This document shows positions 3,331-19,186 of a DNA stretch of 22,874 bases, piece after piece (the first letter of the stretch is position 1; each line of letters starts with the position of its first letter). The notes under the pieces were generated by a model. The model saw nothing but the letters and a program-made list of their open reading frames with translations. It made no database searches and was not told the DNA's origin. The position numbers and the translations under genes are program-made. The DNA is from a virus: positions 1 through 22,874 of IMG/VR virus record IMGVR_UViG_3300047319_000700. One strand, written 5' to 3'.

Positions 3331-3837
3331 ATGCCAGGGAAACTCCAATGGTCCGACGACCGGACCCAATACGTCACCGCGCGCCGACAGGTCGGTATCC
3401 CGTGGGACGCGATCGCGATGGAAATGCGCCAGAAATGGCCTGGCGAGCGAATATCCAGACAGGCCATATGCAATCACATGCGCGATCTTGGCCTACTCGA
3501 ATCGATGTCCTGGCCGAATGTCCCGATCCGCCTGGTATCGCAGGCTTCGCCATGGAACCAGGCGACCGTCGATGTCGCGGTGAGTATGCGGAACCAGGGC
3601 AAACTCTGGCGCGAGATCGAGACAGCCACGGGCATCGACCGGCAGGCCGTCGCGCACTATCTCCGCCGCCAGGGGCTCATTAGCAAAGCAGCGGACAAGC
3701 CGATCCGGACCCAGCGGCCAGTCCACGAAATCAATCCCGAGTTTCACGATACGCGATGGGCCATGCCTCCCGGGCATCCCGTGAGTTGGGGCGCGATTAC
3801 CGACGGCACATGCCTCGAAGGGATCGCATACCCATGA
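3331..3837 (+). CDS. Regulator with two helix-turn-helix units, GcrA-like in form
   Basis: A 168-residue protein, likely DNA-binding. Two similar units are visible. Unit one, about residues 7-55, reads WSDDRTQYVTARRQVGIPWD and later ISRQAICNHMRDLGL. Unit two, about 75-116, reads WNQATVDVAVSMRNQGKLWR and later IDRQAVAHYLRRQGL. Each has a leading Trp, a helix, and an S/D-R-Q-A-x-x-H recognition helix ending in GL, the shape of the N-terminal helix-turn-helix of GcrA. The C-terminal part (from about 120) has no Cys cluster, so it is not a full GcrA. GAGAGG lies eight bases upstream, and its TGA overlaps the ATG of the GcrA gene. It probably regulates transcription; the target is unknown. Confidence 0.65.
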   Translation: MPGKLQWSDDRTQYVTARRQVGIPWDAIAMEMRQKWPGERISRQAICNHMRDLGLLESMSWPNVPIRLVSQASPWNQATVDVAVSMRNQGKLWREIETATGIDRQAVAHYLRRQGLISKAADKPIRTQRPVHEINPEFHDTRWAMPPGHPVSWGAITDGTCLEGIAYP

Positions 3838-4430
3838 GCATTTCACCCTCATCATGGCCAGCGGACGACGATCAATCACTCCGGGAATTGTGGTCCAAGG
3901 GACTGCCCTCGGTTGATATCGGACGCATCTTGCACCGGACGAAAAATTCCATCATCGGTCGCGCTCATCGTCTGAACCTGGAACGCAGGCAGTCGATATT
4001 CGTCAACGTCGAACTCTACGGCCCACCGACCAGGGCGACGTGGCGCGATCGGGTCTCACGCGCGGCACAGCAAGAGCGTAGGGACGTGCCATCGCCTAAA
4101 CAGGCATCAACCCTGCCACCGCTCAAGAGCGGCCTGGAACCGCATCCCAAGCCCACCGTGCTACGGATCGTCAGAACCAGACCGCCGGCGCCTCGTCTCT
4201 ACGTCCCCCAACGCCCGCTGCCACCGACTGACGTGCAACCCCCACGCCCCGAACGTGTCCAGCGGCCTCCCGTGTTCGCCGGCGCGTGCTGCTGGCCGAT
4301 CGGGGAACCTCGCGCGGCTGATTTCCGTTTCTGCGACGAACCGCTGACCACGCACCGGAATTATTGTGAGCAGCATCACTCGATCGGATACGTTAGGCGA
4401 TCGGACCCGTTGACCTACGCCGCCGACTGA
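3834..4430 (+). CDS. gcrA: GcrA-family cell-cycle regulator homolog
   Basis: A 198-residue GcrA homolog. Residues 8-50 form the N-terminal helix-turn-helix (WPADDDQSLRELWSKGLPS, then TKNSIIGRAHRLNLERR, matching the GcrA pattern N-x-I-I-G-R/K-x-H-R-L). A Pro-rich linker covers 60-148. The C-terminal domain has CCWPIGEPRAADFRFCDEP, then YCEQHHSIGYV, the conserved Cys/Trp-Pro-Ile-Gly segment of the family. In Caulobacter, GcrA binds sigma-70 through its C-terminal domain and activates promoters carrying GANTC sites methylated by CcrM. A phage copy could redirect host sigma-70 holoenzyme or keep host cell-cycle genes on. The ATG at 3834 is chosen for its ATGA overlap with the upstream gene; the frame is open further back. 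No CcrM-type methylase is visible here. Confidence 0.88.
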   Translation: MSISPSSWPADDDQSLRELWSKGLPSVDIGRILHRTKNSIIGRAHRLNLERRQSIFVNVELYGPPTRATWRDRVSRAAQQERRDVPSPKQASTLPPLKSGLEPHPKPTVLRIVRTRPPAPRLYVPQRPLPPTDVQPPRPERVQRPPVFAGACCWPIGEPRAADFRFCDEPLTTHRNYCEQHHSIGYVRRSDPLTYAAD

Positions 4431-6020: not shown

Positions 6021-6226
6021 CCAAATCAGAAAAGCGCGTCCTCGCGATGCTGAATGACGGCGATTGGCACCCGGAAAGCGAAATCCGATCGTCGCGAGCG
6101 TTGCTCGAACGTCTATGGCTCGCAAGCATGATCGAAGGAGGTATGTACGGCGTCGGCTCATACCCTGAACATCGGCTATGGCGGAAATGGAACAACCCAC
6201 AAAACCAAACCCCCGATGCCACTTGA
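6017..6226 (+). CDS. Small winged-helix-like protein (69 aa)
   Basis: A 69-residue protein. MTKSEKRVLAMLNDGDWHPE is a typical first helix and turn of a winged-helix domain (K-R-V-L-x-x-L-x-D-G-x-W/H). SSRALLERLWLASMIEG would be the recognition helix, and MYGVGSYPEHRLWRKW the wing. Short phage transcription factors and replication accessory proteins have this form. The ATG overlaps the stop of the preceding gene. The stop codon TGA is itself part of the -35 of the promoter at 6223. Confidence 0.55.
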   Translation: MTKSEKRVLAMLNDGDWHPESEIRSSRALLERLWLASMIEGGMYGVGSYPEHRLWRKWNNPQNQTPDAT

Positions 6227-6251
6227 CACCGGGGGAAGGGCTTTCTAGGCT
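6223..6251 (+). promoter_or_regulatory. Sigma-70-type promoter
   Basis: TTGACA (6223-6228) and TAGGCT (6246-6251) are separated by 17 bases. The bases before the -35 read CCAC, the same as at the 7356 promoter. The predicted start is about 6257-6259, at the foot of the hairpin 6257-6292. The next certain gene is over 600 nt downstream and terminator-like hairpins lie between. Confidence 0.6.
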
Positions 6252-6296
6252 TTCGGGGTCGCGAGGGCATTGCAAGTGCCGTTCGCGGGACCAACG

Positions 6297-6515
6297 ATGT
6301 CGGAAGCATGCGTTGATCTTGTGAGACGGATTATAGCATCCCTCTCCCCCAAATCAACCCTTCCGAATAAACAGCGTGCGCGCCCGCGAAAGCGCATCTG
6401 CCGGTCTTTCTCAACGCGGCAACCGCCGCCAGGGACGATCCCTGGTGAACTGCACCACTGCCCCGACTGGCCTACGCAAGGGCAACTGCAAGCGAGGGAG
6501 AGAAACCGCTCGTGA
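6297..6515 (+). CDS. Doubtful small frame (72 aa)
   Basis: The frame starts with MSEACVDLVRRIIASLSPKS, has a basic middle (KQRARPRKRICRSFSTRQ) and then PGTIPGELHHCPDW near the end. Short phage proteins with a C-P-x-W motif exist, which is the only reason to list it. There is no good ribosome site before the ATG (GGGA at six bases is the best) and another frame is open over part of the same stretch. It lies within the possible short transcript 6257-6549. Confidence 0.25.
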   Translation: MSEACVDLVRRIIASLSPKSTLPNKQRARPRKRICRSFSTRQPPPGTIPGELHHCPDWPTQGQLQARERNRS

Positions 6516-6527
6516 AGACCCGGGCAC

Positions 6528-6549
6528 CCGCCTATCAGGCGGCATTTCT
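6528..6549 (+). terminator. Rho-independent terminator
   Basis: CCGCCT (6528-6533) pairs with AGGCGG (6537-6542) around an ATC loop, followed by CATTTCTAA. The stem is GC-rich and the T-stretch short. It is the first of a row of hairpins between the middle genes and the late region. Confidence 0.55.
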
Positions 6550-6622
6550 AATGATGACCCGGCTTAGAGTAGCTATGTTCGCTCAATCATCACAAACACA
6601 AAACGATGGAACCATTTAAGGA

Positions 6623-6648
6623 GGCATAACATAGGTTTATGCCGTTTT
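6623..6648 (+). terminator. Second terminator-like hairpin
   Basis: GGCATAA (6623-6629) and TTATGCC (6637-6643) pair perfectly around a seven-base loop and are followed by GTTTTG. An unused AGGAGG lies at the 5' edge of the stem (6619-6624) with no start codon at the right distance, so no gene is called here. Confidence 0.5.
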
Positions 6649-6658
6649 GACTGAGGCT

Positions 6659-6871: not shown

Positions 6872-7117
6872 ATGAGCAAATCAGCCGCTCAGAAACGAGC
6901 GGAACGATCCGACCTGAAACCACTGCTTGCAGAGGAAAATCGCGAACGAACGGCAAAAGGTTGGAAGACAATCAATATGATGGCGTTCAAGGCCAAACTG
7001 AAAAGGGAACGAGCTAAAGCGACGAGAACGCCAGGATATAACCCAAACGACTGGAAAATCAGGGAAATTGACCCGCGTTATGGCAGACTAACGCTCATCG
7101 CTAACAATGGGAAATGA
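6872..7117 (+). CDS. Small basic hypothetical protein (81 aa)
   Basis: An 81-residue, strongly basic protein: MSKSAAQKRAERSDLKPLLA, then a helical KINMMAFKAKLKRE-like stretch and a C-terminal part with WKIREIDPRYGRLTLIANNG. The charge suggests nucleic-acid binding, but no fold is recognised. AAGGA lies eight bases before the ATG. Its codon use (many AAA, CGA and ATA-type codons) is lower in GC than the late genes, hinting at a separate origin. Its stop overlaps the ATG of the next gene. Confidence 0.6.
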   Translation: MSKSAAQKRAERSDLKPLLAEENRERTAKGWKTINMMAFKAKLKRERAKATRTPGYNPNDWKIREIDPRYGRLTLIANNGK

Positions 7118-7335
7118 CCGTGAAATACGAGATTAGCTGCGAGGCTGGAGGCACCTATCACACTCAGTATTGGGAAGGTCGAGCATCCGAGTTCGATAAG
7201 ATCGTTCGGGCATACTGGAGAACGATCGTAACCACGGGAATGCTGCCCGGTAGCGATAAGAAGGTCTACAATGCTGTTTTCACGCGCGGGAGTGTTTCTA
7301 CCCTTGAGTGGGACCCGAGATGCCCTGAAAAATGA
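7114..7335 (+). CDS. Small hypothetical protein (73 aa)
   Basis: A 73-residue protein of unknown role. MTVKYEISCEAGGTYHTQYW is strand-rich. A helix follows at about 25-42 (ASEFDKIVRAYWRTIVTTG), and the end (KKVYNAVFTRGSVSTLEWD) is again strand-like. A compact beta-alpha-beta fold is likely. ATGA overlap couples it to the gene before. About 20 bases after its stop begins the promoter of the NusG-like gene. Confidence 0.55.
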   Translation: MTVKYEISCEAGGTYHTQYWEGRASEFDKIVRAYWRTIVTTGMLPGSDKKVYNAVFTRGSVSTLEWDPRCPEK

Positions 7336-7355: not shown

Positions 7356-7384
7356 TTGACATTCCCCGTAAGCAAAGCTAACGC
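7356..7384 (+). promoter_or_regulatory. Promoter directly before the NusG-like gene
   Basis: TTGACA (7356-7361) and TAACGC (7379-7384) with a 17-base spacer. The sequence CCACTTGACA is identical to that at the 6223 promoter. The normal start, about seven bases after the -10, is 7391, which is the first base of the GTG start codon of the next gene, so the message may have no leader. An in-frame TAA at 7379-7381 rules out a longer protein. Confidence 0.6.
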
Positions 7385-7390
7385 GACCCC

Positions 7391-7921
7391 GTGCTCGACA
7401 CCATCCCTAGGGGTTCAGACGCATCAAGACGCGCTGAATCCAGCGGCAGCGACCCTTGGTTCTGCATATGGACGCAGCCAAACCAAGAACATACCGCATA
7501 TAACAGACTGAAAATGCAGGGATTTCCCGTTTTTCTGCCAATGTTAGAGCGCAGACTTCCGAATCGGCATAAAGTCATCGAGCCTTTGTTCAAAAGATAT
7601 ATGTTCGCCAGCCCGGTCGAAGGCTTCTGGTCCTCGATGCGATCGACGCGCGGCGTCTCCGATGTCCTACGCGATCCGAACGGCAAACCCTACGAGGTCG
7701 CGATCCGAGACGTGGAACGCCTCATGAGCGAAATCGTCGTGCAGCCAATCCGAGCCGCGACCATTAAAGCCGGGACAGTCCTCCGGGCGCTCTCCGGGCC
7801 AATGGCTACCCTCACCGGGACATGCGTCCTCGATGCCGGCGAACGGGTGAAACTCCTGCATACGCTTTTCGGCAGGCCGGTAGAGAAGTGGTATCAGCCC
7901 GAAGACCTGGAAGCCGCGTGA
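7391..7921 (+). CDS. NusG/RfaH-like transcription antiterminator
   Basis: A 176-residue NusG-family protein closer in pattern to RfaH than to housekeeping NusG. The NGN domain is at about 22-115: [42 protein letters not shown] and [16 protein letters not shown] match the RfaH signature (EPLF-x-x-Y-x-F and TRGVS). A C-terminal KOW-type domain at about 127-176 has [31 protein letters not shown] and ends EDLEAA. RfaH-type proteins ride on RNA polymerase via the beta-prime clamp and suppress pausing and termination in long operons. As the first gene of the virion operon it is a good candidate late antiterminator. GTG 7391 is the only usable start: the next possible codon upstream is an in-frame stop and the NGN fold needs this length. 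Confidence 0.82.
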
Positions 7922-7922
7922 C

Positions 7923-8132
7923 ATGCCGCCAGTAAGCCAAGCCCAACGAGCCGCCATGCACGCCGCAGCCGAGGGAAAATCCACACTCGGCATTCCTAAG
8001 AAAGTCGCGCGTGAGTTCGTCGCCGCCGATAAACCCGGAAAATTGCCCGAAAAGGCAAAAGACGAACGCAACAAAAACCGAACCGCTGATCGAGCCGTCG
8101 CCCGAATCAGCAAACCCAGCCCGGTCAAATAA
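7923..8132 (+). CDS. Small conserved-type phage protein (69 aa)
   Basis: A 69-residue basic protein: [52 protein letters not shown]. The pattern S-x-x-Q-R-x-x-M-x-x-A-x-x-G-K-S-x-x-G-I-P-K-K-V-x-x-E-F-x-x-A-D is one I associate with small unknown proteins near phage terminase genes. No function is known to me. It starts one base after the stop of the NusG-like gene, so it belongs to the same transcript. It could be a minor virion or packaging-associated protein. Confidence 0.6.
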
Positions 8133-8164
8133 ACAAACCGGCGTTGTCAGAAGGAATAACTTAA

Positions 8165-8638
8165 ATGGCTGGTTGGTTGACCAATGGCATGACAAATCCG
8201 GGGGCCGTAGGAGTTCCCAACTACCTCAGCTTCGGTGCCGGCGCGGGTCTCATCCCCGTCGATACCCAATTCCCGAGCGGCGGCGTCCCGCAGACCGTCG
8301 CAGTTTCCCTGACCGCGCTGACCGCCTTCGTCGCCTCGATGACAGCGAGCACCGCGACCTCCACAGTCCACGCCGCGACACTCAACACTCAAGGCGGACT
8401 TATCACAACCGAAGCACTTACAACCGCAGCGGGTGCCGACTACACGTTCACACTCACCAACTCGCTGCTCGTCGCCGGATCGCCGTCACCCTCCGTCTCA
8501 ATGACCGGATTGACAAATACCGCAGGACAGATCACACTCAAATCCATCACGAACGCCGTCGGATCAACGGTCATCATCTGGACCAACACCGGCACCGCCG
8601 CCTTCAACGGCACAATGCTCATCGCGTTTCATATTTGA
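8165..8638 (+). CDS. Probable beta-rich virion protein (157 aa)
   Basis: A 157-residue protein very rich in Thr, Ala, Ser and Gly, with alternating polar and hydrophobic residues (AVSLTALTAFVASMTASTAT, ADYTFTLTNSLLVAG). This composition is typical of beta-structured head-decoration or fibre-like virion proteins. It starts MAGWLTNGMTNPGAVGVPNY and ends MLIAFHI without a charged tail. AAGGA lies nine bases before the ATG. The gene at 21542 has the same style but no obvious sequence identity. The virion assignment is inferred from composition and position. Confidence 0.5.
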   Translation: MAGWLTNGMTNPGAVGVPNYLSFGAGAGLIPVDTQFPSGGVPQTVAVSLTALTAFVASMTASTATSTVHAATLNTQGGLITTEALTTAAGADYTFTLTNSLLVAGSPSPSVSMTGLTNTAGQITLKSITNAVGSTVIIWTNTGTAAFNGTMLIAFHI

Positions 8639-8641
8639 GGA

Positions 8642-8661
8642 ACGTCTGTTTAGACGTGTTT
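8642..8661 (+). terminator. Weak hairpin just before the small terminase gene
   Basis: ACGTCT (8642-8647) and AGACGT (8652-8657) pair around GTTT and are followed by GTTTAG. The stem ends seven bases before the terminase ATG, where no ribosome site exists. It may be a weak terminator or an RNA structure controlling terminase translation. Confidence 0.4.
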
Positions 8662-8663
8662 AG

Positions 8664-8960
8664 ATGGCGTTAGGTAAGAAAACAGGCGGACGCCAAAAAG
8701 GTGATCTGAATAAGCGTAATCGCGAAATTGCCGAAAAGGCTATTAAGGAGGGAATTACCCCTCTTGAGGTTATGCTCAAAGCAATGCGGATGAGCGCCGA
8801 CGAAGGAGACTGGAAGGGAGCGGCTGCTATCGCGAAGGATGCCGCTCCTTACATGCACCCGAGGCTCGCATCGGTTGAGCAGACTGGTCCGAACGGTGGT
8901 CCGATGATTACCGAGACGATTTACCGTTGGGCGCCTCCTTCGCCGCTTCCATCAGCATGA
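8664..8960 (+). CDS. Probable terminase small subunit
   Basis: A 98-residue protein. GGRQKGDLNKRNREIAEKA, GITPLEVMLKAM, GDWKGAAAIAKDAAPYMHPR and LASVEQTGPNGGP follow the usual pattern of small packaging proteins next to phage large terminases. It would recognise the packaging site and load DNA onto the motor. It is shorter than P22 gp3 (162 residues) and lacks an obvious large N-terminal domain. No ribosome site precedes the ATG, and a hairpin sits in its place. The codons are noticeably AT-richer (AAA, GAA, ATT, CTT, TAAG-type runs) than those of the large subunit that follows, a sign of separate origin. ATGA overlap links it to the large subunit. Confidence 0.7.
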   Translation: MALGKKTGGRQKGDLNKRNREIAEKAIKEGITPLEVMLKAMRMSADEGDWKGAAAIAKDAAPYMHPRLASVEQTGPNGGPMITETIYRWAPPSPLPSA

Positions 8961-10303
8961 CAGTTCAATTCGTCACTCTCCCATTTACGCCGCGCGAGTG
9001 GCAAATGCCGCTCATCGAGGACCGTGCGCGTTCGATCGTCGCCGTGGTCCATCGTCGCGCTGGCAAGTCAACTGCGTTCGTCTGGCGCGGGTTGCGTCAG
9101 GCGCTTACCGAAGACAGACGGCATATTCCAGCGTCGCGTCGTAACATGAAGGCGGATAAGCCTCGTGTCGTGCATGTGCTACCGGCGCAGGTCATGTGGC
9201 AGCGCACTGGCCTTTGGGACAAAGTGGCGCGAGCCGCTGAGATGATCCCCGGCGCCGTCGCGATGAAGTCGGTGTTGAGGGTCGAATTGCCCAACGGCGG
9301 CGTCTACCAGTGCGGCGGAATGGACAAGCCTGACAGTTGGCGCGGTGGTTACGCCGACAGCGTGATTGAGGACGAGGCGGACGATGTGATCGCTAGTGGC
9401 CTCGATATGGTGATCGAGCCGATGCTGTCGGACTACGATGGCGCGCGGGTCAAGATCGGCACGCCAAAGGGCAACGGACGGCTCGCGGCGGCTTACGATG
9501 CGGCAGGTCATGATCCTCACGCCTCGCGCTATCTCCTACCCTACACCGCCACGCACGCCTTGGATGAGGCGCAGATACAGCGGCTGCGTGACACGCTAGA
9601 CGCCGAGGAATTTGCCCAAGAGTTGGAGTGCTCGTTCACTTCCCCGAACTCAGGCTCGTATTACGGCAAGTGGCTTGACGAGGCGATCCGCGACGATCGC
9701 GTGTGCCGTGTCACTTACGATCCCAAGTTGCCCGTCTATACGGCATGGGACCTTGGCATGGACGACAGTACCGCTATCTGGTGGTTCCAGCGTTCCCCTG
9801 GTGGCGAGTGGCGATGGCTGGAATATCACGAGGACAGCGGGCAGGGCTTCGACTACTACGCCAAATTGTTGCACTCGAAACCCTACGTTTACGGCAAGCA
9901 TTATTTGCCGCACGACATCGAGGTTCGTGAATTGAGCAACGGCGGAAAATCCCGTCGCACCACGCTTCTCGGTCTCGGCATCAAGCCGATTTTCGTCGTT
10001 CCGGCCGCGAACCCCGCCGATCGTGTTAGCGCCGTTCGCCAAATCCTGCCGCGCTCGTTCTTCGACTCCAAGGGCTGTGAGATCGGCATCAAGAAATTGC
10101 GTGGCTACCGACGCGCCTGGAACGAGCACATGGGCGTCTGGCGTGCCGAGCCGGTCCATGACGATGCCTCGCACGGCGCCGACGCGATCGGCACTGGCGT
10201 TCAGGGTTCGACCGATCCCGAGAACGCGGTTAGCAAGTCTGTCATTCCCCCGTTCACCCATCGTCCCCTGCCCGTGGCTTCCGGGCGGTGGGCTTCGCTC
10301 TGA
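8957..10303 (+). CDS. Terminase large subunit
   Basis: A 448-residue packaging motor. Residue 31 on reads VHRRAGKST, the Walker A form usual in terminases. VIEDEADD at about 136-143 is Walker B with the catalytic Glu. KIGTPKGNG near 166-174 is the coupling motif. The nuclease domain shows AWDLGMDDS at about 263-271 with the first metal-binding Asp and HDDASHGADAIG at about 401-412 with the last acidic cluster. So both ATPase and nuclease sites are intact. It cuts concatemeric DNA and pumps it into the prohead through the portal. The ATG at 8957 overlaps the small subunit's stop; an ATG ten codons earlier is less likely. Confidence 0.92.
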   Translation: MTVQFVTLPFTPREWQMPLIEDRARSIVAVVHRRAGKSTAFVWRGLRQALTEDRRHIPASRRNMKADKPRVVHVLPAQVMWQRTGLWDKVARAAEMIPGAVAMKSVLRVELPNGGVYQCGGMDKPDSWRGGYADSVIEDEADDVIASGLDMVIEPMLSDYDGARVKIGTPKGNGRLAAAYDAAGHDPHASRYLLPYTATHALDEAQIQRLRDTLDAEEFAQELECSFTSPNSGSYYGKWLDEAIRDDRVCRVTYDPKLPVYTAWDLGMDDSTAIWWFQRSPGGEWRWLEYHEDSGQGFDYYAKLLHSKPYVYGKHYLPHDIEVRELSNGGKSRRTTLLGLGIKPIFVVPAANPADRVSAVRQILPRSFFDSKGCEIGIKKLRGYRRAWNEHMGVWRAEPVHDDASHGADAIGTGVQGSTDPENAVSKSVIPPFTHRPLPVASGRWASL

Positions 10304-11011: not shown

Positions 11012-13219
11012 TTGTCCGACACGCTCGACAGCGACGACACAATCCAATCGGTCGGTGGCCGTAAATATCAGGCCGTGGTCAACCGCGCGCATCGACGCTG
11101 GCGTAAATGCCAACAATGGGAACAATTCGCTCGCACCCATTGGCAAGAAGATTTGAAATTTGCCAATGGTGACGCTTACAACAACTGGCAGTGGCCGTCT
11201 GATGTTTATCAGGATCGTGGCGCGCGTCCATCTCTGACGGTCAACGAAGTGCGCGTGCGGAACCTCCACATTATCAACGAGGCCAAGCAGAACAAGGCGA
11301 GCGTCAAATACCGCCCGACCGGCGGCGGTGCTACACAGGCGGCGGCGGAGGTCTACGAGGGCCTGTATCGCCACATCGCCAACGTCTCCAACGCGCAGAT
11401 GGCGCAGGGCACCGCGATCGAGTTCCAGGTCGATGCCGGCCTCGGGTTCACGCTGATTGAGTCCCGCTACCTGGATGCCGATCCGACCCCCGGACCGGAC
11501 GCGATGGACCAGGAAATCATCATCTCATCGGTGAAAAATCCTCTCGCCGTCATGCTCGATTGTGACTGTGAGGAACCTGACGGAACCGGATCACGCTACG
11601 GGTTCATCTTCTCTGACCGTCCCAAGGATGAGGTCATCGAAGAATATCCGGAACTGCGCGACCGCCTGACAGTCTCCAACTCCGTCGATGGCAATGATGC
11701 CGGCTGGATACGCGACGATCATGTGCGCGAGTGCCGCTACTACGAGGTCGAGGAAGAAAAAGACGAACTCGTGTGCGACGATGAGGGCGTGACGGTTTAT
11801 CGCTCTGACGTTCCGGCCAAATTATTCCGGCAGTGGGAAGATGACGCGGAGGAACAAGGCAAGAAACTCCGTCGCCGCGACACGATCCGGAAAAAGGTCA
11901 AGTGCTATCTGATTATCGGCAACGATGTCGTTGGTGAACCGGACGATTTGCCTGGCACCAGCGTTCCGATCATTCCATGGAACGGGCGTGTCACGCTGAT
12001 CGACAAACATCTTGATCGTGTGTCTCACACGCGCGGGATGATCGATGCGCAACGGATGCTCAATTACAATTGGTCCGCATCGATTGAGTATGGTGCGCTC
12101 CAGAGCAAGTCACCGTGGCTGGCACCCGTTGCCGCGATCGGTGATTACATGACGTATTACGCGACCTCGAACGTGGTCAATCACGGCGTCATTCCGTGGG
12201 TCCACCGCGACGAGGAAGGTCGGGAAATTCCCGCGCCATCGAAAATGCAGCCGCCAACCGCCGCTCCGGTCTACATGGAGGGCGTGCAACTCGCGCAGCA
12301 GTTTATGCAGTCCGCATCAGGCCAATACGAGGCCACGATGGGCCAGCCCGGGAACGAGCGCAGCGGCAAGGCAATCAACGAACGCCAGCGTCAGGGAGAT
12401 CGCGCGACCTACCACTTCATCGACAATCAGGCGCTTGCCATTCGCCGGCAGGGCACGATCATCAAGGAGTGGATTCCGGTGATTTACGACACCGCGCGTG
12501 TCGCGAAAATCATCAACGCCAAAGACGAAGAAGAAGAAATCCAGATCGACCCGAACTCGCCAGATGCTCATCGCGAAAAGGCGATCGGTGACGCCATTCA
12601 GCGCATTTTCAATCCGATGATCGGGAAATATGAGGTCGTTTCGGATGTTGGGCCTGACTACGGCACGCAGCGTCAGGAAGCGTTCAACGCGATCGTGCAA
12701 ATTTTGACGCAGGCGCCGGAACTCATCAACAAAATCGGTGATCTGCTGTTCAAGGTCGCTGACTTCCCGTTGGCCGATGAGATGGCTGAGCGTCTGAAGC
12801 CGGGTCTCGACCCAGCCGCGCAACAGGCCGTCACGCAGCTACAGCAGGCGCTCCAGGTCGCGCAGGCCAAGGGCATGAACACCGAGAAGCTGCTCGCGGA
12901 AGCCATGCAGGCGCTTACCGAAGAACGGCTCAAGGTCAAGGCCAAGGACAGCGACAACACGATCGAGGCGTTCGACGCGGACACGAAGCGTCTGGCGGTG
13001 GTCAAGGACATGATCCCGATGGACCCAGCTGCGATGCAGGCGTTGATCGTGCAGACGGTTCGCCAGGCATTGCAGGACAATCTTGGTCCGGTCGTGGCGA
13101 CGTTGCGCGGCGGGCTGGAGCAGTCCACAAGCGCATCTGGTCCTCCGGGCGCGACTGGCGCGTTGCCGGTCAAAGTGCCCGATGTGGGACAGCAGGCGGC
13201 GCAGCCGGGAGGGATGTGA
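11012..13219 (+). CDS. P22-type portal protein
   Basis: A 735-residue portal protein, close to the 725 residues of P22 gp1. Diagnostic stretches: RPSLTVNEVRVRNLHIINEA (P22 portals have RP-x-L-x-x-N-x-x-x-x-x-V-x-x-x-x-N-x-x), KASVKYRPTGG, AAEVYEGLYRHIANVSNAQM, GLGFTLIESRYLD, and NPLAVMLDCDCEEPDGTGSR. The crown and barrel region near the C-terminus is a long Ala/Gln/Glu-rich helix (about 600-680). Twelve copies form the ring at one vertex through which DNA enters. The start is a TTG at 11012 with little ribosome-site support; an in-frame ATG lies too far in. It follows the terminase cluster and precedes the scaffold and coat, the P22 gene order. Confidence 0.9.
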   Translation: MSDTLDSDDTIQSVGGRKYQAVVNRAHRRWRKCQQWEQFARTHWQEDLKFANGDAYNNWQWPSDVYQDRGARPSLTVNEVRVRNLHIINEAKQNKASVKYRPTGGGATQAAAEVYEGLYRHIANVSNAQMAQGTAIEFQVDAGLGFTLIESRYLDADPTPGPDAMDQEIIISSVKNPLAVMLDCDCEEPDGTGSRYGFIFSDRPKDEVIEEYPELRDRLTVSNSVDGNDAGWIRDDHVRECRYYEVEEEKDELVCDDEGVTVYRSDVPAKLFRQWEDDAEEQGKKLRRRDTIRKKVKCYLIIGNDVVGEPDDLPGTSVPIIPWNGRVTLIDKHLDRVSHTRGMIDAQRMLNYNWSASIEYGALQSKSPWLAPVAAIGDYMTYYATSNVVNHGVIPWVHRDEEGREIPAPSKMQPPTAAPVYMEGVQLAQQFMQSASGQYEATMGQPGNERSGKAINERQRQGDRATYHFIDNQALAIRRQGTIIKEWIPVIYDTARVAKIINAKDEEEEIQIDPNSPDAHREKAIGDAIQRIFNPMIGKYEVVSDVGPDYGTQRQEAFNAIVQILTQAPELINKIGDLLFKVADFPLADEMAERLKPGLDPAAQQAVTQLQQALQVAQAKGMNTEKLLAEAMQALTEERLKVKAKDSDNTIEAFDADTKRLAVVKDMIPMDPAAMQALIVQTVRQALQDNLGPVVATLRGGLEQSTSASGPPGATGALPVKVPDVGQQAAQPGGM

Positions 13220-17017: not shown

Positions 17018-17788
17018 ATGAGCGAGACACAAACCGCCGAACCGACCGAATCCGCGCCTGTTTCCGACGCCACGGTTGAGACTACGCCAGAGGTCCAGAC
17101 CGAGGCATCATCGGATCAGGTCGCGGAGCCTGCCGAGACACAAGCCGAACCGGAGCAACCGAAGCCACGCCGCGCGGATCGACACGTCGCCAATCTCACG
17201 GCTCGACTGAGTGCGAAGGAAGCCGAGGTCGCCGCCGCTGAACGCCGCGCCGCAGCTGCCGAAGCCATGCTACAGGCCGCACGCGAGGGCAACGGCACCG
17301 GACAGCCGCAGACGTTCCCCACGGATATTGAGGCCCGCGCCGATGAGATTGCCCGCCAGCGTGAGTTTAACAAACGCCTGACGGACATCGACACAGCGGG
17401 GAAGAAAGAGGCGGGCGGCGAGACGTGGGAAGAAGCCAAGTCGATCCTGACCGGCCTCGGCGCGACGCAGAACCAGGCGTTCCTCGAAGCACTGGCCGAA
17501 ACTTCGAACCCCACGAAGATATTCGCCGCACTCGCTGACGACAGCGATGAAGTCGTGGCGCTGCTGAAGAAATCTCCCGCCGCGATGGCGGCACACCTCG
17601 GAAGGCTGGACGCGAAAATGGAAACGACTGCCACACCACGCGCCAGTTCCGCGCCGAGACCGCCGGCACCGCTACGGACACCCGCCGTGCAGCCCGAACC
17701 CGACCTCTACGACGAGAAGCTGTCCATGAAGGAATGGGCGGCGATCTGGGATAAGCAGGCGCCACGGTCACTCGGAGGGCGTCGCTAA
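17018..17788 (+). CDS. Probable scaffolding protein
   Basis: A 256-residue protein directly before the coat gene, the scaffold position in P22-like phages (P22 gp8 is 303 residues). The N-terminus is acidic and low-complexity (TQTAEPTESAPVSDATVETT and on to about 50). A coiled coil covers about 53-92 (LTARLSAKEAEVAAAERRAA). A helical middle follows (WEEAKSILTGLGATQNQAFL), then a Pro-rich linker and a small C-terminal helix pair (YDEKLSMKEWAAIWDKQAPR) ending in GGRR. Acidic N-terminus, coiled coil and short basic C-terminus are the hallmarks of scaffolds, which line the prohead and leave before DNA packaging. GAGGA precedes the ATG by four bases. The family call is from position and composition. 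Confidence 0.75.
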   Translation: MSETQTAEPTESAPVSDATVETTPEVQTEASSDQVAEPAETQAEPEQPKPRRADRHVANLTARLSAKEAEVAAAERRAAAAEAMLQAAREGNGTGQPQTFPTDIEARADEIARQREFNKRLTDIDTAGKKEAGGETWEEAKSILTGLGATQNQAFLEALAETSNPTKIFAALADDSDEVVALLKKSPAAMAAHLGRLDAKMETTATPRASSAPRPPAPLRTPAVQPEPDLYDEKLSMKEWAAIWDKQAPRSLGGRR

Positions 17789-17980: not shown

Positions 17981-19186
17981 ATGGCCGATCGCTTGCTCAC
18001 AATCGACATGATAACCCGTGTGGCCGTAAGGCTTTGGAAAAATACAAATGCGTTCATGAGGAACGTCAACACTCAGTACGATGACCAGTTCGCCCGCACC
18101 GGCGCCAAGATTGGCTCCGCGCTGCGTATCCGTCTGCCGGTCGATTACACCGTAGGCACCGGGCAGGCCGTGTCGTTTCAGGACACCGTGGAGAATTTCA
18201 CCACGTTGACGATGGCGACGCAGAACAACGTCGGAATGTCGTTCCCGCAAATCGAACTCACGTTGCAAATCGATGATTTCGCGGAACGCTACATCGCTCC
18301 GGCGGTCAACAATCTCGCCGGCAAAGTGGCTGTCGGGATCATGGCAGGCGCCGAGGGCGGCGTGTGCAACTACGTGGACAACCAGGCGGCGGGCGCGATC
18401 ATCAGCCCCTCGGTCAACACGATCCTGACCGCGAACGCCATTCTCGATACGCAGTCGGCGCCGATGATGAACCACAGATTGGTTGTGAACCCGTTCACCG
18501 ACGCTCGCGTGGCCGGCGCGCTGTCGGGGCTGTTCAATCCATCGACTGAGATTTCCGAGCAGTATCGCAGCGGCAACGTCAAGAACGCTCTCGGCTTCGA
18601 CTGGATGAAGGACCAGACGGTGCTCATGCACACCGCTGGCACATTCTCCGCCGGCACGGTCAATGGCGGTGGTCAGACCGGGACCACGATCACAACGAAC
18701 GCGATCACGGGCACGCTGAAAAAGGGCGATATCATCACTTTCGCTCTGGTCAACGGCGTGAACCGGATTGAGAAGCAGTCCTACGGGCAGCTTCGCCAGT
18801 TCGTTGTCCTCGCGGATGTGGCATCGGGCGGCACGTCGCTGAGCATCTACCCGCCGCTGATCCCGTCGAACCTCGGTAACGACGTGCAATACCAAACCGT
18901 CGATGTCTCGCCCGCGAACTCGGCGGCTGTCACGTTGGTTTCGCCGGCCAGCGCGGTTTATAGGAAAAATATCGCATTCACCCCTGACGCCATAACAATG
19001 GCAACAGCAGACTTGGAAATTCCTCCTAATGTCGAGTCTGCGCGACATGAACTTGACGGAGTTTCAATGTTGATGGTAAGACAATACATCATTGGAACTG
19101 GCGTAACTGGCACAAGAGTTGACGTTGTCTGGGGAGTATTGTGGCTCCGACCAGAGTGGGCCGTGGTTATTCCAGATATAGTCTGA
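17981..19186 (+). CDS. P22-type major coat protein
   Basis: A 401-residue coat protein, against 430 residues in P22 gp5. It opens MADRLLTIDMITRVAVRLWK, NTNAFMRNVNTQYDDQFART, GAKIGSALRIRLPVDYTVGT, matching P22-like coat proteins (L-T-x-x-M-I-x-x-x-A-x-x-x-L-x-N and G-x-x-x-x-I-x-x-P). The middle has FVNNLAGKVA-like and TDARVAGALSGLFNPSTEIS stretches. The end (LVSPASAVYRKNIAFTPDAI, DGVSMLMVRQYIIGTGVTGT, RVDVVWGVLWLRPEWAVVI) is the usual P22-fold C-terminus with a Trp-rich strand. It forms the HK97-fold icosahedral shell with the insertion domain typical of the group. Its first about 80 and last about 230 bases are AT-richer than its centre. Confidence 0.9.
   Translation: MADRLLTIDMITRVAVRLWKNTNAFMRNVNTQYDDQFARTGAKIGSALRIRLPVDYTVGTGQAVSFQDTVENFTTLTMATQNNVGMSFPQIELTLQIDDFAERYIAPAVNNLAGKVAVGIMAGAEGGVCNYVDNQAAGAIISPSVNTILTANAILDTQSAPMMNHRLVVNPFTDARVAGALSGLFNPSTEISEQYRSGNVKNALGFDWMKDQTVLMHTAGTFSAGTVNGGGQTGTTITTNAITGTLKKGDIITFALVNGVNRIEKQSYGQLRQFVVLADVASGGTSLSIYPPLIPSNLGNDVQYQTVDVSPANSAAVTLVSPASAVYRKNIAFTPDAITMATADLEIPPNVESARHELDGVSMLMVRQYIIGTGVTGTRVDVVWGVLWLRPEWAVVIPDIV

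Follow-up and report, generated by a model that had tools for sequence, protein, structure and literature searches.

The window, the whole 22,874-nucleotide stretch that was analysed (22.9 kb, from an IMG/VR record), comes from a P22-like phage and carries a NusG-family gene, with the genes for terminase, portal and coat following on the same strand. The features of the region are collected in Table 1. The open reading frame was recovered as first described, with a GTG start, 176 codons and an in-frame TAA just 5' of it. The gene had also been called the first gene of the late region. It does stand first in the packaging and virion block, but its transcript need not begin with it because two small same-strand open reading frames (6872-7117 and 7114-7335) lie directly upstream. 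The phage additionally carries a GcrA-like gene at 3756-4430 (PF07750, E = 8.7e-18). GcrA is an alphaproteobacterial cell-cycle regulator that works at methylated promoters, and the gene suggests an alphaproteobacterial host. An Rfam scan of the window returned only a chance lncRNA match, and a tRNA scan found none.

Table 1 Position, strand and basis of assignment of features in the window. L001 and L013 are related viral contigs.
Feature	Position	Strand	Basis
Second promoter-like site, TTGACA-N17-TAGGCT	6223..6251	+	Upstream of structured stretch and two hairpins
Terminator-like hairpin, CCGCCTATCAGGCGG + CATTTCTAAT	6528..6552	+	Terminator scan; weak
Terminator-like hairpin, GGCATAACATAGGTTTATGCC + GTTTTGACTG	6623..6653	+	Terminator scan; weak
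-35 hexamer TTGACA, exact match	7356..7361	+	At -35/-36 from aligned GTG also in L001 and L013
Candidate -10 TAACGC, includes in-frame stop TAA (7379-7381)	7379..7384	+	Sequence; weak; hexamer not kept in L001/L013
Predicted transcription start at first base of GTG (candidate leaderless mRNA)	7391	+	-35/-10 spacing only
NusG-family (NGN + KOW) protein, putative late regulator, 176 aa	7391..7921	+	PF02357, phrog_6386, AlphaFold2 model and Foldseek
GCGGCAGC, degenerate ops core, position-conserved counterpart of GCGGTAGC	7443..7450 (+53..+60)	+	Lead only
NGN domain, residues 23-111	7457..7723	+	Pfam match, AlphaFold2 model
EPLFKRYMF motif typical of RfaH-like NusG paralogs	7580..7606	+	Motif count
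C-terminal KOW beta-barrel, residues about 124-176	7760..7918	+	Predicted strands 130-175; phmmer to NusG KOW 1nz9
Small ORF, phrog_16759 (no assigned function)	7923..8132	+	PHROG match
Probable small terminase (phrog_15261, no assigned function)	8664..8960	+	Position directly before TerL
Large terminase TerL	8927..10303	+	phrog_2 E = 4.3e-25, phrog_2472 E = 2.9e-39
P22-like portal	11012..13219	+	PF16510 E = 4.7e-126
Scaffold-like protein	17018..17788	+	phrog_8865 E = 7.4e-09
P22-like coat protein	17981..19186	+	PF11651 E = 1.5e-29

The NusG-family protein and its candidate promoter

The 176-residue protein is, by profile matches and predicted structure, a member of the NusG/Spt5 superfamily. 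Its NGN domain scored 47.8 bits with PF02357 (cut-off 22.2; E = 2.1e-12), and the whole protein matched phrog_6386, named “transcription antiterminator” (E = 1.1e-13). The Pfam scan gave no KOW match in the protein; the C-terminal KOW beta-barrel was identified through predicted structure together with Foldseek and phmmer matches. The barrel is visible in an AlphaFold2 model, where pLDDT is mostly 84–90 across residues 130–170, and residues 125–164 matched the NusG KOW chain 1nz9 in a phmmer search of the PDB. The model was built from 15 relatives taken from the window and viral contigs and replaced a weaker six-sequence model (pLDDT 56). With a mean pLDDT of 79, it comprises NGN and beta-barrel parts, a disordered stretch of 19 N-terminal residues, and the C-terminal domain in its barrel state only. 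The structural comparison proposed in the preliminary description thus returned an NGN fold, with structures of NusG and RfaH recurring across the top Foldseek matches in the PDB. The BFVD entry A0A6J5PZH6 from an uncultured Caudovirales phage (“NusG Transcription antiterminator”) belongs to the same protein family. Only NusG families matched the protein in Pfam, PHROGs, NCBIfam and Foldseek, and the lambda Q sequence family gave no match.

The motif EPLF-x-x-Y-x-F, on which an RfaH signature had been claimed, occurs once in the 22.9 kb and in none of 100 shuffles. RfaH of E. coli shares with the window protein the NGN and KOW fold, the EPLF..Y.F and TRGVS motifs and the R73 and Q24 equivalents, and it provided the best meaningful sequence matches in the PDB and ranked first among the NCBIfam hits. 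The motif therefore stands, but RfaH is too specific a label because the protein scores far below the equivalog cut-offs (55.1 vs 144.5 bits for TIGR01955; 38.1 vs 124 for NF006534) and keeps only one of four base-reading side chains. These RfaH residues, K10, H20, R23 and R73 (PMC5995543), correspond in the sequence alignment to Q29, R39, M42 and R87. Differences from RfaH also include a 22-residue N-terminal extension and a phage-borne gene lying in cis to one virion operon, with no ops element in the window.

The promoter proposed for the gene consists of TTGACA, a 17-nt spacer and TAACGC, followed by 6 nt to position 7391. The hexamers and their spacing are as described and the position of TTGACA is kept in L001 and L013, but the -10 is weak and the arrangement does not rise above chance in the window alone. 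TAACGC agrees with TATAAT at two of six positions, and GCTAACGC at 7377-7384 resembles the alphaproteobacterial form GCTANAWC. A promoter scan of the window did not list the TTGACA site at 7356, and TTGACA-N29-GTG (at most one mismatch) was found four times in the window compared with 4.25 expected in shuffles. The significance of the promoter derives instead from its conservation in relatives, a comparison covering three distinct sequences: the window, L001 and L013. The NusG proteins of L001 (identical to L002–L004 over the compared 2.9 kb) and L013/L014 are 59% and 56–57% identical to that of the window, respectively. In both, GTG is the aligned first codon and lacks a Shine-Dalgarno sequence, and TTGACA lies at -36, compared with -35 in the window. 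CTTGACA is the sole 7-mer common to all three within 400 nt upstream and occupies the same place in each; the flanking upstream DNA gave no alignment.

A leaderless start at 7391, predicted from this conserved spacing, is rather likely. Leaderless mRNAs are common (375) and well translated in Caulobacter (PMC4117421). The leaderless genes of Gluconobacter nearly all begin with ATG (57, vs 3 with GTG and 2 with TTG; PMC5756330), which counts against a leaderless GTG start. Many window genes, including nusG, terL and portal, lack a good Shine-Dalgarno sequence in any case. It is possible but doubtful that TTGACA matches by accident and that the gene is transcribed, with an ordinary leader, from a promoter farther upstream. 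The weak -10 and the chance-level frequency in the window favour it, and the same-strand upstream genes could give a leadered read-through transcript; against it, three diverged phages keep the same distance between TTGACA and the aligned GTG even though their upstream DNA cannot be aligned.

Recurrence of the gene ahead of terminase genes

A search for the same gene before terminase genes, as suggested in the preliminary description, located it in L013, L001 and four named phages. As in the window, nusG lies between early genes and terminase in all of them, L013 and Bradyrhizobium phage ppBjS10J-1 included. In L001 it precedes a terminase whose TerL is only 37% identical to that of the window, and Synechococcus phage MinM1 has the order nusG, terS, terL. 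Across the record start, nusG is followed by HNH and then terminase in Labrenzia phage vB_LagS-V1 and is the last gene before terS in Microcystis phage yong2. A non-housekeeping NusG copy beside a long operon, as expected of an operon-specific paralog, was therefore present in the window and in other phages, and its place just upstream of the late genes is that of a Q-type regulator. As a control, the coordinates of family-profile hits were compared with those of one terminase family (phrog_2) in the same 398 Pseudomonadota genomes; 50 strong RfaH-like hits were obtained in 47 genomes, and no phrog_2 terminase lay within 10 kb of any of them.

In a phylogenetic tree, the proteins encoded at the Q position grouped together (support 86/87; long branches flagged), apart from chromosomal RfaH-like paralogs. 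This grouping suggests one phage-adapted lineage, to be read with caution given the long branches. The NusGs of S-N03 and of the unannotated jumbo phage L012 joined housekeeping NusG and were left out of the Q-position class. In the T4-like Synechococcus phage S-N03 (L023, MT162466.1, 98426-99016) the gene does not adjoin terminase and represents a second kind of phage NusG. Several other candidates were set aside: L006 was a false match and not NusG; L010 and L011 encode housekeeping-type NusG and, like the gut fragments MT83xxxx, are probably bacterial DNA; and the record “Microcystis phage MaAM05, complete genome” (L024, MW495066.1 33500-45000) appears to be bacterial chromosome deposited under a phage name, since it contains metabolic genes and secE-nusG-rplK-rplA.

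Over window positions 7391-10303, comparison with L013 gave 91% identity for terminase and 90% for portal, with only 56% for NusG. Judging from these identities, the regulator is exchanged, or fast-evolving, inside a conserved morphogenesis module.

Candidate loading sites and terminators

Behind nusG of the Bradyrhizobium phage, a noncoding block is nearly invariant while its surroundings are not: GCAAATCAGT ... CGGCCGGT ... TTTCACCCGCCGGGNGGCTTGTG. The consensus of this element in the rhizobial-phage clade is CACCC-NNN-GGG-N-GGCTTGTG, and its layout of a small hairpin plus consensus pause is like that of the ops element of RfaH. A consensus elemental pause has GG at -11/-10 and TG at -1/+1. 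GGGNGGCTTGTG fits this consensus and overlaps the 3' arm of the CCC-NNN-GGG hairpin. The ops element has itself been described as a consensus elemental pause (PMC5995543). Individual sites were recorded at L008:9792-9891, at L087:5760 and downstream of NusG in L088–L116, with intrinsic terminators following.

A pattern scan found the element in 18 contigs, with nusG just upstream in 14; three contigs start less than 300 nt from the element, and one (L072) has no nusG. Because such a scan selects on the element itself, the association was retested with 29 loci found by NusG profile, independently of the element. The element was present in 24 of these with at most 3/22 mismatches, 79–655 nt behind the NusG match, and the best match elsewhere in the same loci had at least 5/22 mismatches. 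A blind exact search of the 398 Pseudomonadota genomes gave one hit; it belongs to a prophage and is flanked by a NusG gene (E = 4.4e-73) on one side and terS/terL on the other. TerL, from at least four PHROG families, was found downstream in all ten rhizobial-clade loci checked by profile, and ten further loci among the 29 matched TerL by tblastn.

A strict rule was adopted for counting intrinsic terminators because the background of a lenient count was high (52/269 at -10 kcal/mol). Under the strict rule, terminators were found within 600 nt behind nusG in 11/29 rhizobial-clade loci, compared with 35/493 control windows (7%). Terminators also lie between nusG and terS in the Labrenzia phage and in yong2. 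On this sequence evidence, the element and terminators behind rhizobial NusG genes are a Q-like architecture. A role as promoter or as cos-like packaging site, with a link to NusG through shared synteny alone, is unlikely for this element. Its location behind nusG and ahead of the terminase genes is one in which cos sites can occur, and it is partly palindromic (CCCGCCGGG). However, it tracks the NusG clade although the downstream terminases span at least four families, it fits the consensus pause, many loci have terminators after it at about +47..+79 (lenient count), and its place in the deposited linear genome of ppBjS10J-1 is internal and not at an end.

Searches of the window found neither the rhizobial element nor, at up to one mismatch, an ops element (GGCGGTAGNNTG). 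The consensus-pause pattern was uninformative in the window (26 found vs 38 expected). A different loading site is expected, since the base-reading residues of RfaH are mostly changed. The ops core GCGGTAGC occurs exactly once each in L001 and L013 (14–16 kb), in both cases at +53..+60 from the GTG. Its counterpart at this position in the window, GCGGCAGC, has C for T6 of ops and lacks the pause-inducing TG. Alternatively, coding conservation of C/S-Gly-Ser or ancestry could account for the ops-like core at +53. If the core is a loading site, its embedding in the coding sequence would account both for a spacing fixed at 17 codons and for an N-terminus that otherwise cannot be aligned. MinM1 was not counted; its TGCGGGAGC falls at codon 18 only from a second ATG, and a Shine-Dalgarno-like sequence accompanies the start as annotated.

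In the window, L001, L013 and MinM1, the interval from nusG to the late genes contained no strong intrinsic terminator. The terminator-like hairpin at 6528..6552 is weak evidence because 24 such sites were found in that region of the window compared with 17.5 expected. The stretch at 6253-6560 folds better than its shuffles (z = -2.64). Together, the promoter-like site, structured stretch and two weak hairpins at 6223-6653 could possibly form a P_R'/t_R'-like leader or a structured RNA.

Proposed function and relation to known systems

The protein is probably an operon-specific phage NusG paralog that acts as a late antiterminator, a counterpart of lambda Q. It would be encoded near the beginning of the late transcript, whose mRNA would probably be leaderless and start from the TTGACA promoter at 7356. 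The NGN domain of the protein would ride on the clamp helices of the beta' subunit of the host RNA polymerase and displace host NusG, and hence NusG-assisted Rho action. The polymerase would thereby be kept from pausing or terminating across the roughly 15-kb packaging and virion block, which starts with nusG itself. We infer a recruitment site in the window phage, as we do RNA polymerase binding, antitermination and the leaderless start.

There is little to recommend a general anti-silencing factor, which would counter host NusG/Rho on the foreign genome and would not be a site-loaded antiterminator of one operon. Two papers describe RfaH-type paralogs as antagonists of NusG/Rho (PMC5449661, PMC7593976), and no terminator or rhizobial-type loading site is visible behind the window gene. 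The gene of a general factor could sit anywhere, however, whereas the fixed pre-terminase position in many phages and the element and terminators in one clade point to an operon-specific role. A translation-coupling factor, recruiting ribosomes in RfaH-like fashion to late mRNAs poor in Shine-Dalgarno sequences with little direct effect on termination, is very improbable: RfaH is thought to help ribosome loading where canonical ribosome-binding sites are missing (PMC5995543) and several window genes (nusG, terL, portal) have no recognisable Shine-Dalgarno sequence, but other late genes have good ones (8165, 13496, 17981, 19816 and 20511) and terminators lie behind the gene in other phages.

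Textbook accounts of phage late-gene control centre on Q- and N-type proteins; to our knowledge NusG features there only as a host helper. Lambda Q, which loads at the promoter-proximal qut site, resembles the putative late antiterminator in its position between the early block and late genes, in the terminator before the late genes of several relatives and in expected function; it belongs to an unrelated protein family. The NusG paralogs LoaP and UpxY and those of plasmids are likewise encoded with the long operon that they supposedly serve, but these are host biosynthetic or tra operons and not phage late genes. LoaP, whose leader has a hairpin, pause and terminator, is a precedent for a NusG paralog (PMC12691694). 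The rhizobial-phage element resembles this leader layout, with the difference that the LoaP hairpin has a UNCG tetraloop. With the LoaP and UpxY models, the window protein either gave no score or fell far short of the cut-off (UpxY, 43 bits vs a cut-off of 100).

Members of the same family in phages (PHROG 6386, BFVD A0A6J5PZH6) are already annotated as NusG homologs, and PHROGs uses the name “antiterminator”. In the open-licence literature, no paper was found that ties phage NusG homologs to the Q position, to late operons or terminase, or to a cis element. PMC7593976 briefly mentions prophage rfaH-like genes, and the phage passages of two NusG reviews are silent on any phage-encoded paralog serving late genes. 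Phage NusG is probably a so far undescribed alternative to lambda Q for switching on late genes. The earlier suggestion of a different solution from Q and N holds for protein class and position; unrelated phages share the position, and one clade adds the element and terminators. A broader generalisation is offered tentatively and is rather unlikely: the phage NusG clade would be a widespread third solution to late antitermination beside Q and N, each lineage with its own cis loading signal, namely a hairpin-pause element with terminator in the rhizobial phages and, in the lineage of the window, an ops-like core that lies within nusG itself, at +53 of its leaderless message. A self-contained, recurrent cassette of NusG gene, loading element and terminator before several terminase families would be a further, separate class of processive antiterminator. 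It would also be a compact natural test bed for the site specificity of NusG paralogs, with about two dozen natural variants of the element.

In the rhizobial-clade loci L099 and L105, about 192–197 nt past the NusG match, only the first half of the element, CACCCGCCGGG, is kept, and it runs directly into ATTTTTGCG and not NGGCTTGTG; this is perhaps a diverged loading site or a terminator. L092 and L096 have no element and share another motif, ATTCACARGC..GGCG, located 132 nt past the NusG match in both, which possibly reflects an alternative specificity.
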